DNA from: a bacterium
GTDB lineage: Bacteria > UBP6 > JAFGXH01
Assembly (NCBI GenBank): GCA_027064085.1
Contig: JAMOQH010000159.1
Location: 1 to 30,508, forward strand
Length of the DNA stretch: 30,508 nt
Reading direction: 5' to 3'
This document shows, piece after piece, positions 7,229 to 23,586 of this stretch. The position numbers and the translations under genes are program-made. Each line of letters begins with the position of its first letter. The stretch's first letter is position 1. Under the pieces are notes generated by a model. It was not told the origin of the DNA, ran no database searches, and worked only from the letters and a program-made list of their open reading frames with translations.

Positions 7229-8314
7229 TTATTTAGATATTTTACTAAGATAAACTTTTAATTTTCTGATTTCAGTGATAGAAGCACCTTTTCTTTCATA
7301 ATTTTTAATTGCTATTTTCATTTTTTGAGGGTTTTTCATTTTAAGATAACATATAGCAATATTGTATAGTAATTCTTTATTATTTGGAGTTATTTTTAAA
7401 GCATTAAGGTATGTCCTTTCTGCATTTGTATATTTTCCTTCTAAAAGATATGCTGATGCTAAACCATTAAAGTCATCTATGCTGTTTGTTTTTTTAGATA
7501 TTTCAGTATAAATTATTTCAGCCTTATTATATCTTTTTTGATTTAAATACTCTTTTGCTAATATTCTTTTTATTTTTATAGATTTACCTATTTTTACAGC
7601 TTTCTCTAAATAATTTATAAAATTTTTGTTGTCTCTTAATTTTTTTGCGAGTAAAGCCAAAGAATAATATCCCTCTTCACTTTTATTTAAACGAATTGCT
7701 TTTTTGTAATACTCAAATGCTTTTTTAAATTTTTTTAGTTTTTCATATAATACACCGATATTATGATATAAAATATAATTAGGTGAGATTTTAATTAGTT
7801 TTTTATATGCTTTAATTGCCTTATCTGTTTGATCGTTTTTCGCATAAACGCTAGCTATTGTTGTTAAGGCAAATATATTTTTATCATCAAGTTTAAGTAT
7901 TCTTTCTGCATATATATTTGATTGTTTAAAATTATTTAAAGAGGCAAATAGTTCAGAAATATTTTCTAAAATACTAATATTTTTAGGCTCATCTTTCAAT
8001 AAATCAAGAAGGATATTTAATGCTCTTTCATATTCTCCTTTTTTTTTAAATTTCATTGCTTTTTTAATTAGTATTTTATTTACAGTAATAGTTTTAATAT
8101 CTGAAACACGATTACTAGTATCTACTTGATTTATTATTTCAGAGTTATCTTTTTTTTCATTATTTATTTTATTTAAAAGATTATCTGTTTCTTTTAAGGT
8201 TTCTGTAAGGTAATCTCCACTAGGTTTATATGTTGTTTTAGGTGTAAATGTTTTTTTTTCACACCCAATAAAGAAACTAGAGAAAAGTAATAAAATTAAT
8301 ATATAAATTTTCAT
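7229..8314 (-). CDS. TPR-repeat lipoprotein
   Basis: The 361-residue protein starts MKIYILILLLFSSFFIGCEKK, a lipoprotein signal with lipobox FIGC. An unstructured Lys/Asn-rich linker follows, then about seven to eight tetratricopeptide repeats (for example AIKAYKKLIKISPNYILYHN and AFEYYKKAIRLNKSEEGYYS) to the C-terminus. TPR lipoproteins act as envelope assembly or scaffold factors. The start at 8314 is preferred to an upstream frame extension because it begins the signal peptide and follows AGAGGG. It is transcribed divergently from the large envelope operon and leads the histidine kinase gene, so it may be linked in function to that operon. Confidence 0.8.
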   Translation of the reverse strand: MKIYILILLLFSSFFIGCEKKTFTPKTTYKPSGDYLTETLKETDNLLNKINNEKKDNSEIINQVDTSNRVSDIKTITVNKILIKKAMKFKKKGEYERALNILLDLLKDEPKNISILENISELFASLNNFKQSNIYAERILKLDDKNIFALTTIASVYAKNDQTDKAIKAYKKLIKISPNYILYHNIGVLYEKLKKFKKAFEYYKKAIRLNKSEEGYYSLALLAKKLRDNKNFINYLEKAVKIGKSIKIKRILAKEYLNQKRYNKAEIIYTEISKKTNSIDDFNGLASAYLLEGKYTNAERTYLNALKITPNNKELLYNIAICYLKMKNPQKMKIAIKNYERKGASITEIRKLKVYLSKISK

Positions 8315-8337
8315 AAGCCCTCTTAAAAACAATATAT

Positions 8338-8367
8338 AATTTAACACTAAAAAGTAATATATGTCAA
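8338..8367 (-). promoter_or_regulatory. Promoter of the TPR lipoprotein-histidine kinase pair
   Basis: On the minus strand, TTGACA (8362-8367) and TAAATT (8338-8343) are 18 bases apart, about 25 bases before the lipoprotein start. It diverges from the envelope-operon promoter; the two -35 boxes are 28 bases apart. Confidence 0.5.
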
Positions 8368-8469: not shown

Positions 8470-9324
8470 GTGAAAGTAATATTGATTTTGTTTATAAGTT
8501 TTTTTATTTCTTGCAGTAAAGAAGAGTTAAAAACATTAGATTGGGAAGTTATTCCTGATTATAGAAAAATTAATATTTCTATAAAAGATTATTGTATTAA
8601 AAATGAAAAAGAATATGTTGATTTATACGCTTCTAATTATTCAGCCAAATTAGACCAAGATAAACTTTTAGTTGATTTTGACAGAGATGGTCTTCCAAAT
8701 TCTTATGATAGTGATGAAACTTATGCTATTTCACCATTAAAATATGATACAAATAAAGATGGCTATAGGGATTTATTGGTTTATTTATCCGGAATTGATA
8801 TAAAAAATCAAGAATATTTAAAAGTTTGTGATGACTTTGAGCAGGATACAGATAAAGATGGACTCTCTGATTGTGAAGAAAATAATTTTATTCGCTCTAA
8901 TCCAAATAGCTTTGACACAGACGAAGATTCCATACCCGATGAGCTCGAGATAATTTATGGCTTAAATCCTAATGATGGTAATGATGCTTATCAGGATTTA
9001 GATGATGACGGTATTATAAATTCTGAGGAGATTAGATTACACACTCCAATTGATATATCTAACAATAAAAACTTAAAAAAATTAGAGTACCAATATCATA
9101 TAACATTAAGTAAACTAAAACCAAGTTCAAGATGCTATAATATTGATATTGATAATATTTCTATTGTTGATGTTAAAAATGGAAACCTAATAAAGATTAA
9201 TATTATAGAAAAGCTAGTAGAGCAAAAAAATATGAGAACTTTTAGAGTTATTGTGGAATATGATAAAGTTAAAAATAACGAAACTCTTGTTTTTGATTTT
9301 AAAGACTTAATAGAAGGAGTTTAA
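8470..9324 (+). CDS. Lipoprotein with thrombospondin type 3-like calcium-binding repeats
   Basis: The 284-residue protein has a lipoprotein signal (MKVILILFISFFISC, lipid-anchor C15). It then carries about five Asp-rich loops of the thrombospondin type 3 kind: DFDRDGLPNSYDSD, DTNKDGYRD, DTDKDGLSDCEE, DTDEDSIPDELE and DLDDDGIINSEE. These bind calcium and stiffen surface proteins. The C-terminal 90 residues look like a beta-rich domain also seen at the end of the next protein (both end in a segment with MRTF or MRTA followed by a hydrophobic strand). The start is GTG after GGGGG. It is the first gene of the operon and probably faces the outside or the periplasm. The ligand is unknown. Confidence 0.75.
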   Translation: MKVILILFISFFISCSKEELKTLDWEVIPDYRKINISIKDYCIKNEKEYVDLYASNYSAKLDQDKLLVDFDRDGLPNSYDSDETYAISPLKYDTNKDGYRDLLVYLSGIDIKNQEYLKVCDDFEQDTDKDGLSDCEENNFIRSNPNSFDTDEDSIPDELEIIYGLNPNDGNDAYQDLDDDGIINSEEIRLHTPIDISNNKNLKKLEYQYHITLSKLKPSSRCYNIDIDNISIVDVKNGNLIKINIIEKLVEQKNMRTFRVIVEYDKVKNNETLVFDFKDLIEGV

Positions 9325-11085
9325 ATGGCTTATAAAGTATTACTTTTAAGCATTACTTTAATGTTTATAGCTATTGGTTGTGAAAAAGAACCTTTAAAAA
9401 AACTAGATAGATATCAAATATTAGATCATAAAACAATTAATGCAAATGTTGATTTTTGTACAATTGAAGCAAATAAAATTAAATCTAATTTAAAATATAT
9501 TTTTATTATTGATAAATCAGGAAGTAATCAAGATTTATCAAATTCTATTGGTACTGACCCTAATGGTGAAAGAAGATATGCTTCTTTGCAATTATACTTA
9601 GAGGATGCTCCTCAAGATGAAACAATTTTTTATTCTTTAATTAATTTATCAACAAATGCAAATTTAGTTTCAGGATTTAATAATGATAAAGTTGCTTTTC
9701 AAGAAGTTGTAGAAAATGAAGCAAATCCAAATGACAGGATTCCTCCGGTACCATCTGATGGAGGGTGGACTAATTTTTCTGCATCTTTAAATATGGCAAG
9801 AGATTTAATATCTGATGATATTCAAAAGGCAAAAGAGGCTAAAGAAGTAGTTAGTTCCTATTATGTTATAATTTTTATTAGTGATGGTGCTCCTTGGGTT
9901 GGAACAACTGATTTGCAGAGTAAATCAGAAATACTCGACCAAGTTGATTCTCTATTGGCTTTTGAAGAAGGCAATAAAGAATATGTTGATTCTGTACAAT
10001 TACATACAGCATATTACTATAATTTGAATGGATTTGATAATGATGCCCAAACATATATGAAAAATATGGCTGAAAATGGAAATGGTAGTTTCTTTGAATT
10101 TGGAGCAGGGCAAGTAATTGATTTCAATAAGTTTTCAGTTCCTGAAAGAAATGTAAAGCATAGTTTAAGAGATGTACTTGTTACAAATATAAATACTAAA
10201 TGGTATAAAGATAGGTTATATGTTGATAGTGACGGTGATGGATTAGTTGACATATTAGAAAATGAATACAGTTCTGACATCATGAATAAAGATAGTGATG
10301 GAAATGGAATATCTGATGGAGTTGAATACTTCACAACTGGTAAACCATGTAAAGCCCTAAAATGTATAGTTCAAGGGCAGGATCCCTGCGAAGAATATAC
10401 TTGTGATTTCACAAAAGCAGAGCCTTACGAGGCTTGTAATAGTTGGCTTGTTACAGGTAATGAAGAATGTGAGCAAAAAAGGGAAGAAAATTATCTAAAA
10501 TGTATGAAAGAGTGTGAATTTACTGAAGATGTCTGTAATGAAAACTGTAAACAAGAAGCATGTCCAGTTTTGCCAACTGAAACAGAAACCGGAGTGCCAA
10601 TTAAAAGGATTGCTGATTTAGATAAAGATTTTTTAAATGATTGTGAAGAACGAGTTGTTTTAAAAAGTAAATCAGATAATTTTGATTCAAATGATGATTG
10701 GATTCCTGATAATCTTGCATTTAAAACTTCTTTAGCATTTGTTGAAGGAACAAGGGGTGATGCTTCTTTAGACCCAGATTGGGATGATGAAAAAAATTAT
10801 GATGAAGTAAAGAAAAATACGCCATTAAGATATGATAATAATAAGATATATGGATTAAAACCGTATAAATATAATCTTACTGTTACAAGCGATAATAATA
10901 TACAGACATGCTTTAATCTAGAAGTAAAAGGAATTTCAGTTGGAACGCCAAATGATATGATTAGGGTTTATATTCTAGAAAATACTTCAATTATTAAAAA
11001 TAAAAGATTTATGAGAACGGCACAGAAAAAGATAAATTTAGATAATCCTGTCCTTAATTTTAAAGATAGTGATTTTAACTTTTAA
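9325..11085 (+). CDS. VWA-domain lipoprotein with thrombospondin type 3-like repeats
   Basis: The 586-residue protein has a lipobox ending at C19 (AIGC). A von Willebrand factor A domain follows (about 55-290) with a full metal-ion-dependent adhesion site: D63-K-S65-G-S67, T149 in GGWTNFSA, and D187 in FISDGAP. DSDGDGLVD and DSDGNGISDG loops at about 301-333 are calcium-binding repeats. Next comes a region with more than ten cysteines (about 342-420), then a C-terminal beta domain like that of the preceding protein. Such proteins bind ligands or surfaces. The ATG directly follows the previous stop after AAGGAG, so the two lipoproteins are probably co-translated partners. Confidence 0.8.
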   Translation: MAYKVLLLSITLMFIAIGCEKEPLKKLDRYQILDHKTINANVDFCTIEANKIKSNLKYIFIIDKSGSNQDLSNSIGTDPNGERRYASLQLYLEDAPQDETIFYSLINLSTNANLVSGFNNDKVAFQEVVENEANPNDRIPPVPSDGGWTNFSASLNMARDLISDDIQKAKEAKEVVSSYYVIIFISDGAPWVGTTDLQSKSEILDQVDSLLAFEEGNKEYVDSVQLHTAYYYNLNGFDNDAQTYMKNMAENGNGSFFEFGAGQVIDFNKFSVPERNVKHSLRDVLVTNINTKWYKDRLYVDSDGDGLVDILENEYSSDIMNKDSDGNGISDGVEYFTTGKPCKALKCIVQGQDPCEEYTCDFTKAEPYEACNSWLVTGNEECEQKREENYLKCMKECEFTEDVCNENCKQEACPVLPTETETGVPIKRIADLDKDFLNDCEERVVLKSKSDNFDSNDDWIPDNLAFKTSLAFVEGTRGDASLDPDWDDEKNYDEVKKNTPLRYDNNKIYGLKPYKYNLTVTSDNNIQTCFNLEVKGISVGTPNDMIRVYILENTSIIKNKRFMRTAQKKINLDNPVLNFKDSDFNF

Positions 11086-11100
11086 CATTAGGGGGTATAT

Positions 11101-12750
11101 ATGTTAAAGCTAGCAACGAGTATACTTATGATTCTTTTTTCAACTCTATTATTTTTTTCATGTAGTGAGTCAGAAGTAAAAAATGATTTTTCCATAGTAA
11201 TATCTAATAATTCAAAAATAGGGGAAAATTTGGAGTTAACGGTTAATGAGAAAGATAAACTTATTAATTATGAATGGTATTTGGAGTATGAGCTTGGCAA
11301 TAAAGTGACATCATGTAATTCACTAAATACTCCTAAAATTGATTGTATCCTTGAAGAGAGTGGAGAGGTAAGAGTTAAACTAGTAGCTAAAACAAGAAAT
11401 GGAGACGATGTTACTTTATACAAAGTTTTTAATGTTTTAGATATGGATTTACCCTTGAATCAAGCACCCGTAATCGTTTTATCTTTAAAGTCAGAAAATA
11501 GCGATGAAGCGATAGTTTCAACTAATCATTCTAAAGAAAAAGGAATTATTAATTTTCCTGTTAACGAAGAAGTAACATTTGATTTTGCAGAAACAACAGA
11601 TGATGTTGATTCTGTAAACGAATTAATATATGAAATGAAAATAGAAGATGGAAATTATGAAACAGTTATTTCTCCATTTAAATACACTTTTACAAAAACA
11701 GGATACTTTACAATAGAATTGAAGGTTACAGATAAAAATGAAAATACTGCTACAAAAAAATTCATTGCTTTTGTTAGTTGTGCAGACAATACAATTGATT
11801 TAGTAATTGATCCTTCTAAAGTAAAAATAACAGCAGATTCTATTCACAATTTCTTTACCTATGATGCATCAACTGCTGTTTCAGGTGGGGATTCATCAAA
11901 ATATAGATATAGATGGGATTATAATGGTGATGGAATTTATGATAGTGATTGGTTAGAAGATGCAAGCATAAGAGAATATACTATATTTGAAGGAATTAGA
12001 AATGTAAAATTAAAAGTTTGGGAACAAGCTTGTAACAATGTAAAAGAAGTTCACTTAACTGAAATTGACCCAAGTTTGTATAATTTTATTATTCCTCTTG
12101 CTGATGCTGTTCCAGGAACATTGCAAGGGCCTCAAATTCCAGGTTATTTCTTTCTTCAAGGATATCCCGTAGGAAAAGATGGTTTTAAATCAACAATTAC
12201 AGATGTTGATTTTATTGCGACAAAAGCTGATTCCTCTCCACCAGAAGAACAATGGAGAGTGTTGTGTGATTATAGGCCAAATGATGGTAAAGCAACTATT
12301 TCAATAAAGGGTTTGAATAAATACGATAGAGTAAAAGAAGACGGTGAGTTACATGGAGCTCTACTAAAATTAGATAATATTGATGTTAGTGGATTCAGTA
12401 ATCAATCTACGACTACTTTGAGTAATTTAAATGCAAATGTTGATAAATTAAACTATTATTCTGATGAAGAATATGATAAGCTAAGTAGAGTTGTTTATCG
12501 CAAGGATGGTAATTGTGTATCTCAACTTACTTTAACTGTTACAAGAGCACAGGGAAGTTGTGTAAGTGGAGCTTCAACCTTTTCAGATGTTATTACCATA
12601 GATGGAACTTATTCTTGTGATAACTTGAAAGGCTCAAATGGAGAGAATATATCTTTTGAAAAAGGAGCTTTTTATTGTGAAGTTGGAAAAGCTGATGCCT
12701 GTATTGGCGGTGGCGGTGGCGGTGGCGGTGTTCCACCAGAAGAATTTTAA
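11101..12750 (+). CDS. Large lipoprotein with PKD-like domains and a polyglycine tail
   Basis: The 549-residue protein has a lipobox at C21 (FFSC). Two or more immunoglobulin/PKD-like beta domains follow. One shows a FDFAETTDD segment near 160 and ends in FTKTGYFTIELKVTD (about 200-214), a typical PKD strand. Another has YRYRWDYNGDGIYDSDW (about 268-284) and VKLKVWEQA. The C-terminal part (about 330-535) is unfamiliar and contains paired cysteines. The protein ends in eight glycines and VPPEEF, encoded by four exact GGCGGT units. PKD domains mediate protein-protein or carbohydrate contacts outside the cytoplasm. It is the third lipoprotein in a row and directly precedes the proton channel genes. 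I infer a surface or periplasmic structural role. Confidence 0.7.
   Translation: MLKLATSILMILFSTLLFFSCSESEVKNDFSIVISNNSKIGENLELTVNEKDKLINYEWYLEYELGNKVTSCNSLNTPKIDCILEESGEVRVKLVAKTRNGDDVTLYKVFNVLDMDLPLNQAPVIVLSLKSENSDEAIVSTNHSKEKGIINFPVNEEVTFDFAETTDDVDSVNELIYEMKIEDGNYETVISPFKYTFTKTGYFTIELKVTDKNENTATKKFIAFVSCADNTIDLVIDPSKVKITADSIHNFFTYDASTAVSGGDSSKYRYRWDYNGDGIYDSDWLEDASIREYTIFEGIRNVKLKVWEQACNNVKEVHLTEIDPSLYNFIIPLADAVPGTLQGPQIPGYFFLQGYPVGKDGFKSTITDVDFIATKADSSPPEEQWRVLCDYRPNDGKATISIKGLNKYDRVKEDGELHGALLKLDNIDVSGFSNQSTTTLSNLNANVDKLNYYSDEEYDKLSRVVYRKDGNCVSQLTLTVTRAQGSCVSGASTFSDVITIDGTYSCDNLKGSNGENISFEKGAFYCEVGKADACIGGGGGGGGVPPEEF
12706..12729 (+). repeat. (GGCGGT)4 in-frame microsatellite
   Basis: Four exact hexamers encode eight glycines near the C-terminus of the PKD-like lipoprotein. 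The block is 100% G+C apart from one T per unit, in an otherwise very AT-rich sequence. Unit gain or loss would keep the frame and alter only the linker length. Confidence 0.9.
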
Positions 12751-12776
12751 TTAATAGGGTATAGGGAGGATAATTA

Positions 12777-13400
12777 ATGCTAAAGTTTTTAAATAGTGGT
12801 GGCCCTTTTATGTGGGTAATCATGAGTGTGTCTATTTTTGCGATTGCAATTATGATTGAAAAAATTTATTTTTTATTTTTTTACTATAAACCAAGTATTA
12901 CTTTTTATAAAGATGTTATTAAGCATATTAGAAAAAATGATTTACCTGCAGCTAAATTATTATGTAGTGGGACAAGTCATCCTTTAGCAAAAGTTATTTT
13001 AGTAATATTAAATAATTTCAACACTTCAAAAGATGCTATGGAATCTGAAATTAACAAGGAGATTCAAAAACTAGTTCCTAAAGTTCAAAAGCACACATCC
13101 TACTTACAGATGATTGGTAATGTATCTACATTACTAGGTCTTATTGGTACAATTCAAGGTTTGATTATTTCATTTTCTAGTATTAGCGGAAAAGGTGCTG
13201 CAAATAAATCAGAAGCTCTTGCAAGAGGTATTTCAACCGCGATGAATACAACTGCTTTAGGATTAATTATTGCTATTCCTTGTATTGTTGCATTTACTAT
13301 TTTTGTAAATAATGAAACTAGTATTATGCAAAAATATAATGAAATAATAACAGAAATCGTTCATATTTTTGAATTTGAAACTAAAAAACAAAAAGGTTAG
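12777..13400 (+). CDS. MotA/TolQ/ExbB proton channel family protein
   Basis: The 207-residue inner-membrane protein has three membrane segments (about 12-35, 114-135 and 157-178). The two family hallmarks are present: GNVSTLLGLIGTIQGLI in segment 2 and GISTAMNTTALGLIIAIP in segment 3. A cytoplasmic loop separates segments 1 and 2, as in TolQ and ExbB. With ExbD partners it forms a channel that turns proton flow into mechanical work on a TonB- or TolA-like protein. The ribosome site is GGGAGG. The next two genes encode the ExbD-type partners and a TonB-like protein follows, the same order of parts as in Myxococcus AglR-AglQ-AglS with AgmX-type proteins. Confidence 0.9.
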   Translation: MLKFLNSGGPFMWVIMSVSIFAIAIMIEKIYFLFFYYKPSITFYKDVIKHIRKNDLPAAKLLCSGTSHPLAKVILVILNNFNTSKDAMESEINKEIQKLVPKVQKHTSYLQMIGNVSTLLGLIGTIQGLIISFSSISGKGAANKSEALARGISTAMNTTALGLIIAIPCIVAFTIFVNNETSIMQKYNEIITEIVHIFEFETKKQKG

Positions 13401-13406
13401 ATCAAA

Positions 13407-13907
13407 ATGGCAATAAAGTTAGATATTCCAGAAAGAGAAGGACAAGAGGTTGATGCACTATTGCCTATTATGAGTCTTTTATTAATTTTGATCCCTGTTC
13501 TTGTAGGAAACATGGCCTTTTATCAGTTACATTCTGTAAGTGTTAATACTCCGGGTGTAAGCAAAGAAGAAAAGATTGACCCCAATACATTAGATAAAGC
13601 AAAAGTAAAGGTAATGCTGAAACTAAAAATAGAAAAGGAGTCTTTTGATGTAGAGCTGTTAGATGAAAATTCAGGAAATCAGATTATTCAAAAAAACATA
13701 GAAAGAGATAGAACAGGAATAGTTTATCTAAAAAGAGAACTTACTAAACTAGCTGATGAATATAAAAAGTTAGATGTAGTACTACTTTATTCATATAGAG
13801 AGCTTAAATATGGAGAACTGCTACCAATTCTAGATGAAGGAGTTAAAACTGTTACTAAAAAGAATGGAAAACCTGTTTTTAAAATAGTAATTGTTCCTGA
13901 GGGTTAA
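13407..13907 (+). CDS. ExbD/TolR-like protein, divergent paralogue 1
   Basis: The 166-residue protein has a short cytoplasmic N-terminus, one membrane segment (about 17-38, DALLPIMSLLLILIP) and a periplasmic domain, the ExbD/TolR layout. D16, at the cytoplasmic edge of the membrane segment, is the best candidate for the proton-carrying aspartate, although the usual sequence around it (xxPLxD) is changed and two prolines lie within the segment. The periplasmic domain (about 60-166) includes a strand-helix pattern ending KPVFKIVIVPEG. It lies seven bases after the channel gene and six before the second ExbD gene. Two unequal ExbD-type subunits beside one TolQ is the stoichiometry known from the AglRQS motor. 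Confidence 0.75.
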   Translation: MAIKLDIPEREGQEVDALLPIMSLLLILIPVLVGNMAFYQLHSVSVNTPGVSKEEKIDPNTLDKAKVKVMLKLKIEKESFDVELLDENSGNQIIQKNIERDRTGIVYLKRELTKLADEYKKLDVVLLYSYRELKYGELLPILDEGVKTVTKKNGKPVFKIVIVPEG

Positions 13908-13912
13908 TAAAA

Positions 13913-14407
13913 ATGAGTAAAAATTATTTTAGTACAGCAACAGCAAAAAGAAGTAGTCAAGCATCTGTTAATATAACATCTTTAATGGATGTTCTTACGA
14001 TAATATTAATATTTCTATTAACTAATTATTCAGATAATCCACCAGAACAAAACCCTCCAAAAGGAATAACCATTCCAATTATAGCCGCAAAATCTAATAA
14101 AAAGTTTTCAGAAAAATTTACTAAAGAAATAAAAATAGTTTTTTATAAAACAAAAATTGAAATTAAAGATGAAATTATTCCATTTGATAATTTTGAAGAA
14201 CAAAGTGACCAAATATTAGAGTTGGTTTCTAAAAAATTGTCTAAAATAATAACTCCTCTATCAGAAAAAGAAAAGAAAAATTCAGCAATTATTTTATTAG
14301 CAGATAAAGATATTAGATATAATATGATTAGTAGCTTAATTCAAGCAGCATCTATTACTGGAGTTACACATATTGAGATGCTTGGAACATTTGAAGCAAA
14401 GGAGTAA
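13913..14407 (+). CDS. ExbD/TolR-like protein, canonical paralogue 2
   Basis: The 164-residue protein has an N-terminal cytoplasmic stretch, the motif SVNITSLMDVLTIILIFLL (18-36), and a periplasmic domain. D26 matches the conserved proton-binding aspartate of ExbD/TolR. The periplasmic part (ADKDIRYNMISSLIQAA... THIEMLG, about 130-160) resembles the end of TolR-like domains. It pairs with the preceding divergent paralogue and the upstream channel to make a proton-driven motor in the inner membrane. The next gene begins three bases after its stop. Confidence 0.85.
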   Translation: MSKNYFSTATAKRSSQASVNITSLMDVLTIILIFLLTNYSDNPPEQNPPKGITIPIIAAKSNKKFSEKFTKEIKIVFYKTKIEIKDEIIPFDNFEEQSDQILELVSKKLSKIITPLSEKEKKNSAIILLADKDIRYNMISSLIQAASITGVTHIEMLGTFEAKE

Positions 14408-14410
14408 AAT

Positions 14411-14638
14411 ATGAATAAAATAATTATATTTGCCTTATTATTTTCTATACACCTTTATGCTAAAGATGTAAAAGAAGCTAATAACTCTAAAAAAGAAGAG
14501 TCAACAGATGTAATAGAAGTAAAAGGTCAAAGTCGTAATTTTAATATGAAGCTTGTATTAAGAACTAAAAAAGATAAAATTTCATTTGTAAAAACTAGAA
14601 AAAATTATAGAGAAGAAATTTTATCAACAGAACCATGA
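14411..14638 (+). CDS. Small exported protein of the motor operon
   Basis: This 75-residue protein has an N-terminal signal peptide with likely cleavage after LYA (about residue 17), then a charged, mostly polar mature part of about 58 residues with VIEVKGQSRNFNMKLVLRT in its centre. It has no cysteine and no membrane anchor. I do not recognise a named family. Its place between the ExbD and TonB-like genes, with AAGGAG in the preceding stop region, suggests a periplasmic accessory subunit. Coding status is well supported by the signal peptide and tight packing. Confidence 0.7.
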   Translation: MNKIIIFALLFSIHLYAKDVKEANNSKKEESTDVIEVKGQSRNFNMKLVLRTKKDKISFVKTRKNYREEILSTEP

Positions 14639-14666
14639 TTTAAAGTATTGCATAGGAAATTAAAGT

Positions 14667-15986
14667 ATGTTAAATAGAGTTTTTAAAAATTATCAACTTT
14701 TCATAAATCATAAAAATAATATATCTAATATTGAGAGATATTATCCTGTTATTAATTTAAAAAAAAGAATGCAAGAAGAAATAGAATTAGACTTATTTAA
14801 ATTTAAGATTGTTTCTACTAAATCGGTAAAAAAAGGGGTAAATATTGTTTTTGAAGGCGATATTCATAATCTAAAATATGGAGAATTAATTACAATTAAC
14901 ACAGAATATGGAGAACTATCATTTAGGATTATAAATGATTGGACATTTAATACAAATTTTAGTTTTAATAAATTTTTTTATTATTCAATAATTGCTCATT
15001 TGTTACTTATTGGAGCATTAGCATTTCCTCAATTATTAAAAGCAAAAGACGATAAACCTAAAAACAATAAAAAAATAGAAAAAAGAGTTGCTGAAATGCT
15101 TGAGAAAATAGAAGCAAAAGAACCTAAAAAAGAGAAGATAGAAAAACCTAAAAAAGAAGTAAAAAAGATTGTTGTGCAGAAAAAAGAAAAGAAAAAAGGT
15201 TTTTGGCCTTCCAAAAATCCAATCAAAAAAAATGTATCTAGAAAAGTTACTAGAAGACCAAGGCGAACAACTCGTAATAATAAAAATTCTGGCCCTGTAA
15301 CTAATAAAAAAGTATCAAAATCTTTAGATTTTCTTGGTGGAGGTTTTTCGGGGAAAGTGGCCGTTAATACTAGTCCAACTGCAAGAGGAAAAGCGTCTGG
15401 AGTAAGAGGAGTAAGAGGCTTTGGTAGTAAAGGAATTGCGGTAAAAGGAATTAGCTCTGATAGCTCTGCTTTAAAAGGTGGGGGAAATTATTCTGGAGCG
15501 ATTGAAACAAAAGGTGTAAGAGGGGTAAAGTCTACAAAATATAAAGGTGATGGAGGTCGTGGTACTGGGTATCGTAAGTCATTAAATTCAATTGAAGGCA
15601 AGGTTTCTGCAAGAACGCTTGGTGGCTCAAATAAAGGTGGAAAAGTTGGAGGCTCTTTAAGTCGTGCTGGTGGATTAAGATTAACAGGAAAAGGTAGAAT
15701 TAGTCAAAAGAAAATACAAAAGGCTATTAATAAAAAATTATATAGGTTAACTTACTGTTATGAAAAAGCTTTGTTGCGTAAACCTAATTTATCAGGAATA
15801 ATAAAAATACAATGGACAATTAAAAAGAATAGAAAGGTTAGAGGTACTAAAATTGTAAGTTCACAAATGAAGGATAATAAGCTTCATAAGTGTTTAATGA
15901 AAGAGATTAGAAAGATAAGGTTTCCTGCTCCTAAAGGAGGGGATGCAACAGTTATATACCCATTTAAATTTAAACCAACTTTATAG
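14667..15986 (+). CDS. TonB-like energy transducer with AgmX/PglI C-terminal domain
   Basis: The 439-residue protein has a cytoplasmic N-terminal domain of about 100 residues, one membrane helix (about 103-124), a Lys/Glu/Pro-rich spacer (126-190), an Arg-rich patch, a Gly-rich low-complexity stretch (about 222-345) with repeated GVRG and KG words, and a C-terminal domain (about 346-436). That domain reads YRLTYCYEKALLRKPNLSG ... KCLMKEIRKIRFPAPKGG and matches the AgmX/PglI family, with the Cys pair near 365 and 410. S107 and H111 in the helix reproduce the S-x3-H motif of E. coli TonB that couples to ExbB/ExbD. It probably reaches across the periplasm to pull on an outer-membrane partner. 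Myxococcus homologues of this architecture belong to the gliding apparatus. Confidence 0.8.
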   Translation: MLNRVFKNYQLFINHKNNISNIERYYPVINLKKRMQEEIELDLFKFKIVSTKSVKKGVNIVFEGDIHNLKYGELITINTEYGELSFRIINDWTFNTNFSFNKFFYYSIIAHLLLIGALAFPQLLKAKDDKPKNNKKIEKRVAEMLEKIEAKEPKKEKIEKPKKEVKKIVVQKKEKKKGFWPSKNPIKKNVSRKVTRRPRRTTRNNKNSGPVTNKKVSKSLDFLGGGFSGKVAVNTSPTARGKASGVRGVRGFGSKGIAVKGISSDSSALKGGGNYSGAIETKGVRGVKSTKYKGDGGRGTGYRKSLNSIEGKVSARTLGGSNKGGKVGGSLSRAGGLRLTGKGRISQKKIQKAINKKLYRLTYCYEKALLRKPNLSGIIKIQWTIKKNRKVRGTKIVSSQMKDNKLHKCLMKEIRKIRFPAPKGGDATVIYPFKFKPTL

Positions 15987-16006
15987 TCTAAAGGAGAGTT
16001 AATTTT

Positions 16007-16645
16007 ATGAAGTTACTTGATAAAACATACATAGTATTGATTAGTTGTTTATTACTATTCACATATTCACTTAAAGCAACAGATAAAATTTTAGGAGAAC
16101 TTGATGGTGCAAAAATTTCATCATTAGAAACATCTCTACCGTCTGACAATAGTGCAATTAATATGGGTACTGATTTTTTTCCTTTTAATCCATACTATAA
16201 CGGAATTGGAGCTTTCTTAGGATACCAATACTATATCACCAAAAATTCTTCTTGGGAAGTTATAAGGCTTACCTACATCTACTCTATTCAAACTGATTTA
16301 ACAAATCAACTTGCTGAAAAGTATGGTGTAGCTCCAAAAGAAATAGAAAGATTGTTTTTTGTATTAAAGTCTAGTTATAAATATTATCTTAGTTATGGAA
16401 AGTCATTATTGTTTGATGATTATATTAATATTTTTAGATTTGGTTTAATTATTGGGCCTGGTTTGGCATTTACTAAAAAAGCTAGCTTATCTAATACTAA
16501 GTTTCTCGCAAATATAGGTGTTTCATTAGAAATATATATTAGTAAAAGCTTACTTTGGTATTTTGAGTTCCAGGATTCCGTAACAATAGAAAGCAATTGG
16601 GTTACATACCCATCATTTACACTCGGCCTTAAGAAGATGTTTTAA
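16007..16645 (+). CDS. Outer-membrane beta-barrel protein 1
   Basis: The 212-residue protein has a signal peptide (cleavage probably after SLKA, about residue 24). Its amphipathic strands alternate with short turns, and it ends in an aromatic LGLKKMF, typical of outer-membrane barrels. Segments such as GIGAFLGYQYYITKNSSWEV and SSYKYYLSYGKSLLFDDYIN resemble the barrel domain found beside motility-type genes in myxobacteria. Its length suits eight strands. It follows the TonB-like gene and is a candidate for the outer-membrane end of the machine. It lacks a plug domain, so it is not a TonB-dependent receptor. Confidence 0.65.
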   Translation: MKLLDKTYIVLISCLLLFTYSLKATDKILGELDGAKISSLETSLPSDNSAINMGTDFFPFNPYYNGIGAFLGYQYYITKNSSWEVIRLTYIYSIQTDLTNQLAEKYGVAPKEIERLFFVLKSSYKYYLSYGKSLLFDDYINIFRFGLIIGPGLAFTKKASLSNTKFLANIGVSLEIYISKSLLWYFEFQDSVTIESNWVTYPSFTLGLKKMF

Positions 16646-16646
16646 T

Positions 16647-18014
16647 ATGAAAAATTTAACTAGCTTAAAAAAAATAATTTTAATTTTTTTAATTATAATA
16701 ATGTTCCCTCTTAAGCTCAATGCTACTACAAGATGGGTTGGTGAAATTCCTGAAAAATGGAAGGACAGTAAAAAATGGGAAACATTATTAAATGATTTGC
16801 TAAAAGAAAAAAAGTATTATAGTGCAATGATTGCAGCAAATAGAATGTTGCTTTTATTTAATGAATTAGAAGTAAAAGAGATTGCATATAAGACTATTAT
16901 AAAAATTACAGATGAAGGATATCCGTTTCAAGTAAGAAAAATTTATATTTATGGCAATATTGAACCTAAAATAGGCTATGATTTTATAAATAATTATAAT
17001 TTTTATAAAGCATATATAAATGAAAAGAAAGGTTTGCATAAATGGGCAGAACATTACTTTGCAAAAATAGATAAAGACAATTTTCATAAATATTTATTCT
17101 ATAAAGCAATTAAGCTATATGAATCCAATAAGTTATATGATGCTTTACAGATTTTAAAAAGAGTACTGAAGCTAAATTTGGATGAGAGCCATGCTGCATT
17201 TGTAAAAAAAACAGCAAGAACAATGGCTAGGATATATTTTGAATTAGAAGAATATCAAATGGCATTAGATATATATAAAAACTTTTTGCTTAAGACAAAT
17301 CCTGTAAGATCAACAGATTGGTTAGAGACAGCTTGGACTTTGTATCACTTAAAATACTATAATAGAGCACTGGGAATGTTATATAATCTCGAATCTAAAA
17401 CTTTTGGAGAAGTTGTTCATTTAGAAAAATTTATTATTAGGGCATTAATTTATAGAAAATTATGTCAAACTGATTTAATGGAAGGGCTTTTAGATAGTTT
17501 TATTAAAAAATTTGGTTATATTATTAATGGGGTAAAAGAGGGTAAATCCATTACAAACTTCAAAGGATTGGATATTTTATCAAGTGAACAAAATAAAGAA
17601 TATTTTAAATATCGTTACTTATATAAAAAACTTTCAGATGAATATAAAGATATTGCTCGTAGGAGTAAAGATGATGATATTGATATTGATATAAAGTTAT
17701 ATAAGTATTTAATTTCAACAGAAAAAAGTATTTTAAATAAAAATGCTCAGATGTTTGAAGATAAAAGTAAACATCAAGCAGTTAAATATTTAGTTTTATT
17801 ATATGAAAATCTTAGGTTTTTAAAATATGATGTTATTTTAGAAAAATTTAATCCAAATACAATATTTATAAAGCCTGAAAAAATAAATTTAGATTCAACA
17901 TCAACAGAAAAACGAATATTTTCATTTTATTGGCCTCAAAAAGGAGCTTATTGGGCAGATGAAAGACTTTATTATAAAACTTGGCTAAGGAACTTATGCC
18001 AAAATGAAGAATAG
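16647..18014 (+). CDS. Exported TPR-like protein
   Basis: The 455-residue protein has a signal peptide (hydrophobic core about 10-22, cleavage near LNA). It is mainly alpha-helical with tetratricopeptide-type pairs, for example KLYDALQILKRVLKLNLDES (about 163-182) and EYQMALDIYKNFLLKT (about 203-218). It ends in a distinct aromatic C-terminal tail with WADERLYYKTWLRNLC. No catalytic motif is seen. Its start overlaps the previous stop region (one base between stop and ATG), so translation is coupled. Such periplasmic scaffolds form assembly platforms in envelope machines. I cannot tie it to a named family. Confidence 0.65.
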   Translation: MKNLTSLKKIILIFLIIIMFPLKLNATTRWVGEIPEKWKDSKKWETLLNDLLKEKKYYSAMIAANRMLLLFNELEVKEIAYKTIIKITDEGYPFQVRKIYIYGNIEPKIGYDFINNYNFYKAYINEKKGLHKWAEHYFAKIDKDNFHKYLFYKAIKLYESNKLYDALQILKRVLKLNLDESHAAFVKKTARTMARIYFELEEYQMALDIYKNFLLKTNPVRSTDWLETAWTLYHLKYYNRALGMLYNLESKTFGEVVHLEKFIIRALIYRKLCQTDLMEGLLDSFIKKFGYIINGVKEGKSITNFKGLDILSSEQNKEYFKYRYLYKKLSDEYKDIARRSKDDDIDIDIKLYKYLISTEKSILNKNAQMFEDKSKHQAVKYLVLLYENLRFLKYDVILEKFNPNTIFIKPEKINLDSTSTEKRIFSFYWPQKGAYWADERLYYKTWLRNLCQNEE

Positions 18015-18028
18015 AATTGGAGAATAAA

Positions 18029-21000
18029 ATGAAAACTTTTTTTACACTATTATTAATATTATTTTATACAACAGTATTCTCTCAAAATATTATTATTAAT
18101 AAAAAATATGATTATACTAAAATATCTTACAAAAAAAAGAAAAAAAGATCTAAAAAGTATAAAAGATCTAAAAGATATAAAAGAAAAAATAAAAAGAAAA
18201 CTAAAAAAAACAAAACAACTAAATCAACCAAGCCTTACTCTAAAGATAAAGTTATAGAAAAGTCATCAGCTAAGAAAGATACAAAAGAAGTTAAGGATAA
18301 TAAAAAAACGATACAACCAAAAGAAAAGCTAAAAATAAAAATAAAAAAGAAAAATATAAATTATAAAAAGGTTATAAGAAATAAAAAAGCTACGGATTTT
18401 AAATCAAAATTAGCATTAATGCTTGATTACATTAATAAATCTATTGATGTATTAAAACAACAGATAACGGATAATCCTAATGCTCCATTTTTAGCTGATT
18501 TATATTTGGAATTAGGTAATTTGTATAGCCAGAAGTCAAATACTCTATATTATATTCAAATGGAAAGAATGGAAAGTGATAATGATTCAGGAAATCAAAA
18601 AAAGTTTTCTATTGTTGTGGAAGCGTCTAAGGAGGCTATTGCAATTTACGAGTTACTTGTGAAAGATTTTCCTGAATATCATAGAATACCAGAGGTTTTA
18701 TATTTGCTAGCATTAATAAATAGTTCAATAGACAATGAAGCTAAATTTTTAATAACTGCCGAAAAGCTGGTGAAAACATATCCTAAATCTAAAGAGGCAA
18801 TGCAAGCAAGGATGTTATTAGGACAGTTTAATTTTCATAAAGGAGATTATAAAGAAGCATTAAAGTTTTTCACTCCTGTTGCTAAATCTAAATTTAACTT
18901 TGTAAAGAATCAGGCTAAATATAATATGGGACAAGCCTACATGCGTTTAGATAAACCTAGAAAAGCATTAAAATATTATAAAGAAGTCGTTTTAGATAGT
19001 GAACTTGAAAAACATGGTCGAACTGATGAAATATCTATTAAAAATAAATCTGTGAATACTTCATTAAAAAAAGATGCACTTATTGATTCAATAAGACCTT
19101 TTACTATTATATATCCTAATTATAAAAATCCAGAAATTTATTATGCTAAATTAGCTCCTAGTGAAATATTATATCAAGAAGTTATTGAAAAGTTAGCATT
19201 TAGGTATATTAATTTAAAAAAATATCAATCAGCAATAAAACTTTTAAGAGTTTTAAGTGAAAGAACTATAGACCCCGAAAAAGTTATAAATATTTATCAA
19301 GAAGTTTTAACAATAATTCCTTTAGATAAAAGAATTAATATAAAAGTTAAAGAAATTAGATTTGTATTAGAAAAATTTTATATGTGGTTTTCTTTTTATA
19401 AGATTAATCCGAAACTTAAAAGAGTTGCAACAAGATTTATTGAAATACAAATTAGAGAATTAGGTACCAGAAATCATGATATTGCTAAAAGACTTTCGGC
19501 TAGTAAGAGAGAAAAATATTTGAAAAAGGCTGAAAAATTCTATCTATTGTATTTAGGCTTTTTTAAAAAAAATAGAAATGCTCCTAAAATTGCAATAAAT
19601 TTAGCAGATGTATATTATCGCTTAAAGATGTATCCTGAAAGTGGAGATTACTATCTTAGAATTGTTAGTCAAGAATTTGGAAAATCTAAAAAAACAAATA
19701 AAGAACTAATTGAAAATGCTTTAAATTCATTACAAAAAGAAAAAACATATACCTTTTATGAGAATACATGGAGGAGAGGTTTACTTTTAACTGCAGTAAA
19801 AACCTATTTTAAACTTGATAAAAGAAAACGAAAAAATGATCAATTAAATTTTATATTAGCTAAAACTAAATTTGAACAAGGAATGTATGAAGAGGCTTTA
19901 AATGATTTATATTTATTTGTAAAAAGATTTCCTAATAGTAAATATGTTATTGATTCAGGTGAATTAATATTAAATTATTTTAATACGAGTGGAGATTACC
20001 AAGGTTTAGAAAGATGGAGTAGTAAATTATTATCATTAAATTTTAAAGATAAGAATTTTAAAGCAAAATTAGAAAAAATCAGAAAGCAAGCTAAATTAAA
20101 AACTCTTGATAGCGATATTCAAAATGATAGTGATTATAATGCTTTTTATCAAAGTAGATCTTATTATAAATTTGCAATAAATACAAAAGATAAAGAATTA
20201 AAAAATATTGCACTTGAAAGAGCATTGTTAAAGAGTAGAGAAGAAAAAGATATTAAATTATTTTTTAAAACAGCAAATTATTTAAAATCAAAAGAAAAAG
20301 ATAAAAAGAAAAAACTAGCAATATATAATTCTATTGCAAACGAGTATGTTTATTTAGGAAGATATCCTTCTGCTCTAAATACATTTATGGAAATATATAA
20401 GTATAAAGGGTTTTCAGAAAAAACAAAGAAGGATGCTTTTATAAAAAGTTTTAGTATTACTCTTGCTATGAAAGATTTCAAAAACTTTAAGCAATTTATT
20501 AAGGATCCATATTTTAAATATATAAATGAAGATTTAAAAGAGCAACTTTTACAATATCTTGTTTCTGCAGTAAGTTCTAGTGTAAAAATTGATTCATATT
20601 TGATAGAATACTTAGGGAGACGAATAAGTGAACCCTCTCAAATAGTTGCATTGTATAGAGTGAAAAATAAATTAAATAAAAATCTTTTGCAAAAAATAAA
20701 TTCAAAAATAAATTCAATTTGTAGAGAGGATAATGAAGAAGCTGTTTGTTTATGGAGATATGCTGAAAAATTAGAAAAAAAGAAATTAGTATATTTGGCA
20801 AGTTTAAAAAAAGCATCTACTTCTGCTAATGATATAGGCAAATATGGAGAAGGTTTTGTCAGTTTAATTAATCCATATTCAGAAATAATAAAATCTGATG
20901 ATTCATTACTTAGGGTGTATATTATTACTCAGTATATGGAGTTATATACAGAATTTGCAGTTTATTTAAATAAAGTAGCTAAAAAAAATAAAAATCTGAA

Positions 21001-21499
21001 AGATGCTTTATCTCAAAAAGTAACTGAAAGCCTTAAAACAAAAGATGAATATTCAAAAGCATGCAAAGAAATTGCTAAAAATTCAGAAGTATTTATCCCT
21101 ATTGCAAAGTATTGTGATGGTAAAAAAAGTTTGCAAATAGATAAAATTTTTAATTATGAAAATAAAATAAAATCAGAAAATGATTTTACTGAATATAACA
21201 AAAAAGAAGTATTATCATTTCAAAAGCAAATGCTTGTTGATAAAAATGGAGATACATATCTTGATTTGGCAGATGCTTACTTAGCAGCTAAAAAATATAA
21301 TATGGCTAATGCTGTGGCAATATATGGGATGTCGTTGTTTAATGAAAAATCTGATAGTTTCTCTGCAATTTTAGGTTGTAGTTCATTAAGTTTGGGCTTT
21401 TTAAATGAAGCAAAATATTATTTGCTAGATGCAAATGATTATCAAGGCTTAAAAACTAAATGTCTAGAAGACTTGAAAATAATTGAGGAGGGAAATTAA
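18029..21499 (+). CDS. Giant exported TPR protein with Lys-rich head
   Basis: The product has about 1156 residues. A signal peptide (MKTFFTLLLILFYTTVFSQ) precedes a strongly basic, Lys/Arg-dominated stretch of about 90 residues (about 35-125), then TPR-like helical repeats through most of the chain (for example YPKSKEAMQARMLLGQFNFH and KPRKALKYYKEVVLD near 250-320). The ATG at 18029 is chosen for its GGAG and because it opens the signal peptide; an in-frame TTG lies 12 bases upstream. The layout resembles large TPR scaffolds (for example GltD/AgmU-type in Myxococcus), but that is an analogy. The basic head could hold the protein to acidic cell wall or LPS. Coding extends to within one base of the next start. 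Confidence 0.7.
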   Translation: MKTFFTLLLILFYTTVFSQNIIINKKYDYTKISYKKKKKRSKKYKRSKRYKRKNKKKTKKNKTTKSTKPYSKDKVIEKSSAKKDTKEVKDNKKTIQPKEKLKIKIKKKNINYKKVIRNKKATDFKSKLALMLDYINKSIDVLKQQITDNPNAPFLADLYLELGNLYSQKSNTLYYIQMERMESDNDSGNQKKFSIVVEASKEAIAIYELLVKDFPEYHRIPEVLYLLALINSSIDNEAKFLITAEKLVKTYPKSKEAMQARMLLGQFNFHKGDYKEALKFFTPVAKSKFNFVKNQAKYNMGQAYMRLDKPRKALKYYKEVVLDSELEKHGRTDEISIKNKSVNTSLKKDALIDSIRPFTIIYPNYKNPEIYYAKLAPSEILYQEVIEKLAFRYINLKKYQSAIKLLRVLSERTIDPEKVINIYQEVLTIIPLDKRINIKVKEIRFVLEKFYMWFSFYKINPKLKRVATRFIEIQIRELGTRNHDIAKRLSASKREKYLKKAEKFYLLYLGFFKKNRNAPKIAINLADVYYRLKMYPESGDYYLRIVSQEFGKSKKTNKELIENALNSLQKEKTYTFYENTWRRGLLLTAVKTYFKLDKRKRKNDQLNFILAKTKFEQGMYEEALNDLYLFVKRFPNSKYVIDSGELILNYFNTSGDYQGLERWSSKLLSLNFKDKNFKAKLEKIRKQAKLKTLDSDIQNDSDYNAFYQSRSYYKFAINTKDKELKNIALERALLKSREEKDIKLFFKTANYLKSKEKDKKKKLAIYNSIANEYVYLGRYPSALNTFMEIYKYKGFSEKTKKDAFIKSFSITLAMKDFKNFKQFIKDPYFKYINEDLKEQLLQYLVSAVSSSVKIDSYLIEYLGRRISEPSQIVALYRVKNKLNKNLLQKINSKINSICREDNEEAVCLWRYAEKLEKKKLVYLASLKKASTSANDIGKYGEGFVSLINPYSEIIKSDDSLLRVYIITQYMELYTEFAVYLNKVAKKNKNLKDALSQKVTESLKTKDEYSKACKEIAKNSEVFIPIAKYCDGKKSLQIDKIFNYENKIKSENDFTEYNKKEVLSFQKQMLVDKNGDTYLDLADAYLAAKKYNMANAVAIYGMSLFNEKSDSFSAILGCSSLSLGFLNEAKYYLLDANDYQGLKTKCLEDLKIIEEGN

Positions 21500-22200
21500 T
21501 GTATAAAAAAATAATATTTAATATTTTATTTATAATTAGTTTAGCTTTCTTTAGTAGTTCTAATATTTATGGTTCAAGTAAAGATTTTGATTATATAGAA
21601 AGTGACTTTTTAAAAGAATATCCTAATTTAAATAAATTTATTTATAAAAAGCCACATTCTAATATATATTTAGGAATTGGAGTAACTCCTTTAGCGATGA
21701 CAGATAATAGATTTATATTATCAGGAAGTTTATTTCAACTTCATTATATAAATAAAACATGGGATATAGAGCTTTTTAATATTTCTTTAGGAGTAAATCA
21801 GGCAGAGAACTCAAATTATTCATCATATCATTTTATAATTAGAACAGCTCCTAAAATAAAAATATATAAAAATTTAAGCTTAGGAGGAATTGTTGGCTGG
21901 GAATTTGTTAGTTTTCCTAAAGTAATGAAAAAAGAATACAAAAATCAATATTTTACTCCAATGGAACCATTTTCTGCAACAGGATTAGTACTAGGTGTTA
22001 TATTTTCTCAAGAATTTAAATATTATGATAAATTTACAATTAAAATTAGTGAATTTATTTATAGAGAATTTTATTCGGTTAAAGAGGCTAAATATTCTTG
22101 GAAATATTGGTTTGAAGATGAGGAGATAGAACAAGATCCTGACAAAAAGGCTATTGCTCCAAGTTTTGTTGGGGGATTAGAAATTTCTATTCTTTTTTAG
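21499..22200 (+). CDS. Outer-membrane beta-barrel protein 2
   Basis: The 233-residue protein has a signal peptide (cleavage near IYG-S, about residue 25), then a short helical stretch and a series of amphipathic strands (IYLGIGVTPL, HFIIRTAPKIKIY, LSLGGIVGWEF, ATGLVLGVIFSQEF), ending in GGLEISILF, a barrel-type terminus. It is a second probable outer-membrane barrel of the operon. An acidic loop (WFEDEEIEQDPDKK, about 206-219) lies before the last strand. The ATG overlaps the preceding stop (TAATG) after GAGGAGG, so it is coupled with the giant TPR protein. Confidence 0.6.
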   Translation: MYKKIIFNILFIISLAFFSSSNIYGSSKDFDYIESDFLKEYPNLNKFIYKKPHSNIYLGIGVTPLAMTDNRFILSGSLFQLHYINKTWDIELFNISLGVNQAENSNYSSYHFIIRTAPKIKIYKNLSLGGIVGWEFVSFPKVMKKEYKNQYFTPMEPFSATGLVLGVIFSQEFKYYDKFTIKISEFIYREFYSVKEAKYSWKYWFEDEEIEQDPDKKAIAPSFVGGLEISILF

Positions 22201-22209
22201 GAGTATACA

Positions 22210-23172
22210 TTGAAAATATTTATTTCTATTATTTTAATAATTCTTACTTTTTATTCTTGTGAAGAAGATAAAAAAGATGTAGGAAAAGAGGATCAAGGTT
22301 GTAAATCTGATAATAGTTGTGATAAAAATTTATATTGTAACTTAGAAAATAAAAAATGTGAACCATGTTCTGTAAATCAAAATATTCTTTCATTATGTGA
22401 AGATAATCAATGTCTTGTTTCTAGTGGTGATTTTTGTATGGGTTGTCAAGATTTGGAAGGTGTTTCGTGTAATGAAGATGAATTACCTTATCATAAAATA
22501 TATTTAAAGGCATATAAAATAGACCAATATGAAGTTACTGTTGCTGAGTTTAAAGAATGTGTTCAAAAAGGTAAATGTGATATTAAAAATGTGTATTTAA
22601 AAGAATCAGATAAATGTAATTATGAAATTGCTGGCAGAGACAAGTACCCAATGAATTGTGTTAATTGGTATGGAGCTAAAGAGTATTGCAAATGGAAGCA
22701 TAAGAGACTACCAACAGAAGCAGAATGGGAAAAGGCTGCAAGAGGTAATGACGGAAGAATATATCCCTGGAATAACAATAAATTTGGGTGTGACTATTCT
22801 ATTGTAGACATAGATGAAGAGCTAAATAATGGTAACGAAGGCTGTGAAAAAAATAGTAGCTCAGAAGTAGGCTTTTTGGCAGGGGTTAGCCCTTACGGCC
22901 TTAATGACATGTGTGGAAATGTTATGGAGTGGGTAAATGATAATTATGATAGTAGATACTATTCCGAGATAGGGCAGAATGATACAGATGAATTTAAAGA
23001 AAGAGAAAATCCACAAGGGCCTAAAACAGGTAATTCTAAAGTGTTAAGAGGTGGAAGTTGGAGAACCTATGGAAAAGTTGCATATACTTTTAGACGAGAA
23101 AGATATGTGCCTTCTTTTGGACATGATGATTATGGTTTTCGTTGTGCTGAAGATATTCCTGATGCCGAATAA
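22210..23172 (+). CDS. Formylglycine-generating-enzyme-like lipoprotein, catalytic cysteines absent
   Basis: The 320-residue protein starts at TTG after AGGAG and has a lipobox at C17. A Cys-rich module (31-79) precedes an FGE-sulfatase domain: YKIDQYEVTVAEF (102-114), RLPTEAEWEKAARG (166-179), PYGLNDMCGNVMEWV (228-242), LRGGSW (279-284) and GFRCAED at the end. In the active enzyme two copper-binding cysteines follow GGSY at +2 and +7. Here those places are T286 and A291, so sulfatase activation is unlikely. Non-catalytic FGE lipoproteins such as GldK and GldJ are structural parts of the Bacteroidota gliding/type IX machinery, and a similar role is inferred here. It is the last gene of the operon. 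Confidence 0.8.
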   Translation: MKIFISIILIILTFYSCEEDKKDVGKEDQGCKSDNSCDKNLYCNLENKKCEPCSVNQNILSLCEDNQCLVSSGDFCMGCQDLEGVSCNEDELPYHKIYLKAYKIDQYEVTVAEFKECVQKGKCDIKNVYLKESDKCNYEIAGRDKYPMNCVNWYGAKEYCKWKHKRLPTEAEWEKAARGNDGRIYPWNNNKFGCDYSIVDIDEELNNGNEGCEKNSSSEVGFLAGVSPYGLNDMCGNVMEWVNDNYDSRYYSEIGQNDTDEFKERENPQGPKTGNSKVLRGGSWRTYGKVAYTFRRERYVPSFGHDDYGFRCAEDIPDAE

Positions 23173-23586
23173 TTATTTTCCCATTGCTTTAAATGCCATT
23201 GCGTACATTTTCATTTGTTTTACAACTTGAGCAACTCCATTACTCCTTGTCATTGATAAATTAGCTATTAATCCAGAACTAGTTAAGAAATTCTCATCTA
23301 TAGATAATATTTCTGAACTTGTAGAATTAGAGTATATTTGATTAATAATAACTAAAATTCCTTTTATTATTGCTGCTTCACCATCTAAACTAAAAAATAG
23401 TTTTCCATCTTTGTATTCTGGGTACACCCATACTTCTGATTGACAGCCATTTATTTTATATTTGTCAATTTTTAGATTTTGAGGCATTTCAGGTAAAGTT
23501 CTTCCTAGGTTTATTAAGTATTTATACTTCACTTCATCATCTGTATTTACAAATTCTTTTATTGCTTCATTTATTTTGTCTAACAT
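23173..23586 (-). CDS. sufE: SufE-like sulfur acceptor protein
   Basis: The 137-residue protein matches SufE in length and motif order. The active cysteine C48 lies in INGCQSEVWVYPE, and the C-terminal GLIANLSMTRSNGVAQVV segment (about 104-121) is the family SxxRxNG region. SufE takes persulfide sulfur from the cysteine desulfurase SufS and passes it to the SufBCD scaffold for Fe-S assembly. It lies 21 bases after the methyltransferase gene with a strong GGAGGAAAT start region, so the two form an operon. Its stop abuts the stop of the convergent FGE-like gene with no base between. The other suf genes are not in the window. Confidence 0.9.
   Translation of the reverse strand: MLDKINEAIKEFVNTDDEVKYKYLINLGRTLPEMPQNLKIDKYKINGCQSEVWVYPEYKDGKLFFSLDGEAAIIKGILVIINQIYSNSTSSEILSIDENFLTSSGLIANLSMTRSNGVAQVVKQMKMYAMAFKAMGK

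Follow-up and report, generated by a model that had tools for sequence, protein, structure and literature searches.

A single-operon Agl-Glt/Nfs-class envelope machine linked to MtsD-family adhesin-like lipoproteins in a UBP6-lineage bacterium

The window analyzed here is a whole contig (C159, JAMOQH010000159.1) of 30,508 bases from a 3.65-Mb draft genome, 95% complete, of an uncultured bacterium in the UBP6 lineage (JAFGXH01). Thirteen plus-strand open reading frames occupy positions 8470-23172, with minus-strand genes on both sides, and together they almost certainly encode an envelope machine of the Agl-Glt/Nfs class. A preliminary description of the locus had proposed thirteen co-directional genes with gaps of about 30 bases or less, and the coordinates agree, the intergenic gaps in gene order being 0, 15, 26, 6, 5, 3, 28, 20, 1, 2, -1, and 9 bases (maximum 28). 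Two other genomes of the window's family, G001 (JAFGXH01, isolate ZodW) and G002 (DYRY01, isolate SulCav), contain all 13 genes in unchanged order; in G002 a contig break puts the first genes on a second contig. The conservation of gene order that had been left for checking therefore holds, with flanking genes in G001 and G002 that differ from those in the window, and a chance arrangement can be excluded. The remaining sampled members of the phylum gave weak matches to the 1160-amino-acid protein alone, which restricts the operon to one family within the sampled phylum. A further locus of this family, L083 (DYRY01000045.1), is titled Anaeromyxobacter dehalogenans, has about 28% GC, and is apparently mislabeled. 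The genes of the operon are as follows.

8470..9324, +, lipoprotein with TSP3 calcium repeats, MtsD/CglD-like (NCBIfam MtsD 8.6e-16, CglD 3.9e-5; lipobox FISC-S; ortholog in G001)
9325..11085, +, lipoprotein with VWA and TSP3, MtsD-like adhesin (MtsD 8.6e-15; metal ion-dependent adhesion site motif DxSxS...T...SDG; lipobox AIGC-E)
11101..12750, +, PKD-domain lipoprotein (PKD 5.2e-5, PKD_4 2.9e-5; lipobox FFSC-S; orthologs in G001 and G002)
12777..13400, +, TolQ/AglR-type proton-channel subunit (MotA_ExbB 8.5e-26)
13407..13907, +, ExbD1, transmembrane Asp replaced by Ser (ExbD 0.0025, under the Pfam cut-off; column alignment)
13913..14407, +, ExbD2, transmembrane Asp kept, SLMDVL (ExbD 4.1e-9; column alignment)
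14411..14638, +, small exported GltF/CglF-like protein (conserved position before GltG; weak motif in common with CglF-like peptides)
14667..15986, +, GltG/AgmX-type TonB-like transducer without an FHA domain (NF033768 92.5 bits; GltG 3.3e-22)
16007..16645, +, outer-membrane barrel, OMP_myx_plus, GltA/B-like (TIGR04565 1.4e-12, under cut-off)
16647..18014, +, GltC-like exported TPR protein of the Mts-type branch (NF033756 3.3e-8)
18017..21499, +, GltD-like large exported TPR protein, 1160 amino acids (TPR 3e-11)
21499..22200, +, second small outer-membrane barrel (AlphaFold2 predicted local distance difference test score, pLDDT, 60; 8 long strands predicted)
22210..23172, +, lipoprotein resembling formylglycine-generating enzyme (FGE), without the catalytic Cys pair (PF03781 6.4e-49; lipobox FYSC-E)

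The profile searches upheld the MotA_ExbB, ExbD, AgmX/PglI, OMP_myx_plus, GltC-like TPR, TPR, PKD, and FGE assignments, and the families, trees, and synteny bear out the proposed architecture, in which one operon supplies a motor, a TonB-like transducer, a TPR scaffold, small barrels, and adhesin-like lipoproteins. The TolQ protein falls in an AglR-type clade of 13 rows (bootstrap 98; Shimodaira-Hasegawa-like approximate likelihood ratio test, SH-aLRT, 94) that also holds myxobacterial motors and cluster-linked motors of other phyla. It is accompanied by two ExbD/TolR proteins, as the class requires. At the membrane Asp position the first ExbD has Ser in the window family and Asn in other UBP6-type motors; with Ser in ExbD1 and Asp in ExbD2, the pair is predicted to be asymmetric. 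A first ExbD without the membrane Asp followed by a second with it is seen in several Agl-type motors (L045, L059, L067, L153, L203, L254). A Tol-Pal or TonB import system was considered and rejected, as the window has no Pal, TolB, or TonB-dependent receptor.

The transducer scores well above the cut-off of 40 bits for the AgmX/PglI tail, its match to the GltG model spans residues 75-437, and its transmembrane helix carries an SxxxH pattern. It lacks the FHA domain that the genome's canonical GltG has. A database search with the small exported protein gave no match. The GltD-like protein is 57-58% identical to its counterparts in G001 and G002; beyond the family it matched the GltD-like protein of a myxobacterium (G055, contig C35) at 3.7e-36, and canonical GltD more weakly. 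With modest confidence, Foldseek placed the second barrel among OmpA/OmpX/OprF-type barrels (best 7.4e-5), and hhalign detected no relationship between it and the first (probability 0.3).

The locus had been described as a single-locus relative of the Agl-Glt gliding machinery. The class was correct, but the closest relatives form a separate, MtsD-linked branch, here termed Mts-type, and are not the gliding Glt genes. Luciano et al. 2011 (PMC3169522) defined a seven-gene core for the class, AglRQS with GltC, GltD, GltE, and GltG, which is frequently encoded at a single locus. Family searches found no GltE-like gene in the operon, so the core is incomplete in the window. Neither GltG (78.8 of 650 bits) nor GltC (32.7 of 450) reached the equivalog cut-offs of the gliding machine. 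A tree of 56 GltC homologs split into 24 window-type and 32 GltC/NfsC-type sequences (SH-aLRT 99), placing the window protein outside the gliding/Nfs clade.

The same genome encodes a canonical glt cluster elsewhere (C22), with a barrel, GltC (1e-82), a GltD-like protein, GltE, CglF, GltG (1e-64), and CglE. It also has a second Agl-type motor (C40), whose subclade excludes the window motor. This second motor and a GltG-like protein (G000:C40, L045:8205-19868) adjoin a Wza-like lipoprotein (Poly_export/SLBB) and a Wzz/Wzc-like protein, and this cluster is possibly an Nfs-like polysaccharide machine; a similar Glt/motor arrangement occurs in rumen UBP6 relatives (L067, L068). The absence of MglA noted earlier applies to the locus and not to the genome, where an MglA-like GTPase (C126:90367-90942) with 63% identity to myxobacterial MglA is unlinked to the operon. 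A second MglA-like GTPase (C52:311-850, 45% identity to myxobacterial MglA) is likewise unlinked. Because the MglA of this genome is accompanied by a canonical glt cluster, gliding is a less likely output for the operon.

The relatives of the operon in Myxococcota point to a different partner. Window-type clusters in this phylum have the order GltG-barrel-GltC-GltD. In G055 the closest relatives of the window GltG, barrel, GltC, and GltD form one such cluster on C35. At a distance of 9.5 kb are a true MtsD, which scores 1328 bits against a cut-off of 800, and two more TSP3/VWA lipoproteins. A gene at G055:C35:635.5-637.2 kb, between that for MtsD and that for the TSP3 lipoprotein that follows, encodes a TSP3-repeat protein that has a PKD-like segment and ends in a MYXO-CTERM-like sequence; by hhalign this protein was unrelated to the window's PKD lipoprotein. 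Within 20-kb pulls, MtsD-family genes accompanied 7 of 19 window-type clusters but none of the 21 canonical ones (Fisher p 0.003). One locus (L246), among 20 first taken as window-type, was canonical by GltC score and was placed in the control group before counting. In a whole-genome search, MtsD-family genes were present in all 43 genomes with a window-type GltC, which span sixteen family codes, and in 1 of the 17 without it, although the p-value of 1e-13 for this presence test overstates the evidence because the genomes are related. Where a window-type cluster and an MtsD-family gene shared a contig, they were at most 25 kb apart in 31 of 33 cases. In the window itself an MtsD-family VWA and TSP3 lipoprotein is likewise encoded next to GltG-barrel-GltC-GltD. 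As in the window, the motor lies inside the cluster in two Myxococcota loci (L245, L254) and in G060 of another phylum.

The TSP3, VWA, and PKD proteins each contain a lipobox, as proposed, but with the FGE-like protein the number of lipoproteins is four and not three; Asp is found at position +2 in none of them. The VWA (0.0085) and TSP3 (0.0069) matches are under the Pfam cut-offs, yet both proteins match the MtsD model. Their MtsD scores of 57.2 and 53.9 bits do not reach the equivalog cut-off of 800, so by the equivalog rule they are homologs and not orthologs. The VWA lipoprotein aligns over nearly its full length with myxobacterial MtsD and MtsD-like proteins (28% identity), sharing the lipobox, the DxSxS...T...SDG motif, the TSP3 repeats, and the C-terminal domain; its AlphaFold2 model has a pLDDT of 46. 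The FGE-like protein was rejected as an active enzyme, since a PDB alignment to solved FGEs gives no Cys at the CYRYRC site. An FGE-like lipoprotein adjoining a proton-driven motor is also a feature of the type IX secretion system (GldK/PorK), but the window protein scores 85.6 bits against a GldK cut-off of 350 and the operon has no GldL, GldM, or GldN.

We suggest, with a probability of roughly 0.55, that the machine encoded by the operon uses proton flow to present VWA/TSP3 adhesins or to place them under tension, and that its output is cell-cell or cell-surface adhesion rather than gliding. The assembly, the path of force, and the adhesion output are inferred. TolQ and the ExbD1-ExbD2 pair would turn proton flow through the ExbD2 Asp into movement at the inner membrane, as in other members of their family. 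The GltG-like protein would carry this movement across the periplasm, as its AgmX tail and SxxxH helix suggest. By homology, the GltF-like peptide and the GltC- and GltD-like TPR proteins may form a periplasmic scaffold reaching the two small barrels, which would hold the VWA, TSP3, and PKD lipoproteins so that they are exposed, moved, or tensioned on the cell surface as adhesins. Such handling of lipoproteins is modeled on the Glt complex, which is reported to recruit and unmask the VWA adhesin CglB (PMC13104615, PMC12288465). As the operon's branch accompanies sticky surface proteins, gripping cells or surfaces is a likelier job than gliding.

Several points weigh against adhesin presentation. 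The window lipoproteins score far under the MtsD equivalog cut-off, and the cell-cell cohesion role of MtsD is known to us from its NCBIfam name only, no primary paper on MtsD having been found. ExbD1 lacks the membrane Asp. TolQ is present in 3 of the 19 myxobacterial clusters, and in most of them the motor does not adjoin the Glt genes. In the GltC tree the window family has a long branch close to the split, so its depth within the window-type branch is unsure.

The most probable of the alternatives, though an unlikely one, is that the operon is Agl-Glt proper and drives gliding over surfaces, the VWA lipoprotein taking the part of CglB. The operon has the same class of parts and a CglB-like VWA adhesin, and the genome contains the MglA described above and an MreB-like gene (L052, judged by eye from its N-terminus). 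However, the genome holds a separate canonical glt cluster and a second motor, the GltC/NfsC clade does not include the window protein, and the operon has no GltE, GltI, GltJ, or FHA domain. Evidence from Myxococcus xanthus may also bear on this. In complete genomes of 9.0-9.3 Mb the Mts-linked cluster is at 1.56-1.57 Mb, about the expected place of locus tag 1327, and judging by map position only it is probably the G5 cluster of M. xanthus (MXAN_1327 region). No motility defect was reported for MXAN_1327, the gltD homolog of G5 (Luciano 2011, PMC3169522), which, if G5 is the window-type counterpart, speaks against gliding.

Transport of surface polysaccharide with glycan-binding lipoproteins, as in Nfs spore coat assembly, is improbable: the paralogous Nfs complex moves glycan around the spore (PMC3858216), but family searches of the window found no gene for making or exporting glycan, and in this genome the Wza-like and Wzz/Wzc-like genes adjoin the C40 motor cluster instead. 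Least probable is a secretion or localization device whose task is to bring the four lipoproteins to the surface, with adhesion secondary. The lipoproteins are co-encoded with barrels, and proteins with VWA and TSP3 commonly function extracellularly. Against this, both barrels are small (one predicted 8-stranded), unlike known lipoprotein exporters, and none of the relatives of GltC, GltD, and GltG is a secretin.

On either side the operon is flanked by a minus-strand gene.

7229-8347, -, TPR lipoprotein 5' of the operon, divergent, 122 bases from the operon start
23173-23586, -, SufE 3' of the operon, abutting its last gene

Further downstream, also on the minus strand, are genes for a 1063-amino-acid protein that combines a Ser/Thr kinase domain at its N terminus with a long array of WD40 repeats at its C terminus (24899-28090) and for a chemoreceptor (methyl-accepting chemotaxis protein) with a PAS domain (28359-29900). 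Promoter-like sites (86 versus 96.8 in shuffles) and terminator-like sites (4 versus 3.6) showed no excess, and a scan of viral contigs found no relatives.

Compared with known systems, the operon shares with Agl-Glt of M. xanthus an AglR-type TolQ, two ExbD proteins, GltG, GltC, GltD, an OMP_myx_plus barrel, and a small exported protein, but it lacks GltE, GltI, GltJ, GltK, and the FHA domain, its GltC belongs to another branch, and its genes lie in one operon with the adhesins co-encoded. The Agl-Nfs spore coat machine has the core set and a compact encoding (nfsA-H) in common with it; unlike that machine, the window operon has no polysaccharide link and includes its own motor and adhesin lipoproteins. 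The AglRQS and GltCDEG core of Gammaproteobacteria and Geobacter also combines motor and Glt core at a single locus, to which the window adds barrels and adhesin lipoproteins while lacking GltE. Closest are the Mts-linked clusters of Myxococcota, with GltG-barrel-GltC-GltD, nearby MtsD-family VWA/TSP3 lipoproteins, and the same GltC clade. The window operon differs from these in including the motor, the GltF-like peptide, the second barrel, and the FGE-like lipoprotein, in having no FHA domain, and in its much diverged sequences.

Prior work already covers the class as such, its occurrence at a single locus, and its connection to VWA adhesins in gliding. By 2011, clusters of the class whose output was not known had been recorded (G4, G5, and M2 of M. 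xanthus), and single-locus cores had been described (PMC3169522). Neither the separate MtsD-linked branch nor the complete one-operon version of it outside Myxococcota was found in the literature searched. We tentatively propose that this branch, found in most sampled Myxococcota families, in one further phylum, and, within the UBP6-related phylum, in the family of the window, could be a third functional branch of the Glt/Nfs class, a proton-driven machine devoted to cohesion that presents VWA/TSP3 adhesins by mechanical means. The window operon would be its complete single-operon form, with Asp in one of the two ExbD proteins. The linkage predicts both an output for one branch, adhesin display, and its cargo, the MtsD-family lipoproteins, and this prediction is open to direct test in a tractable myxobacterium. 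If true, proton-driven force transfer to the cell surface would extend from movement and coat assembly to cell adhesion.

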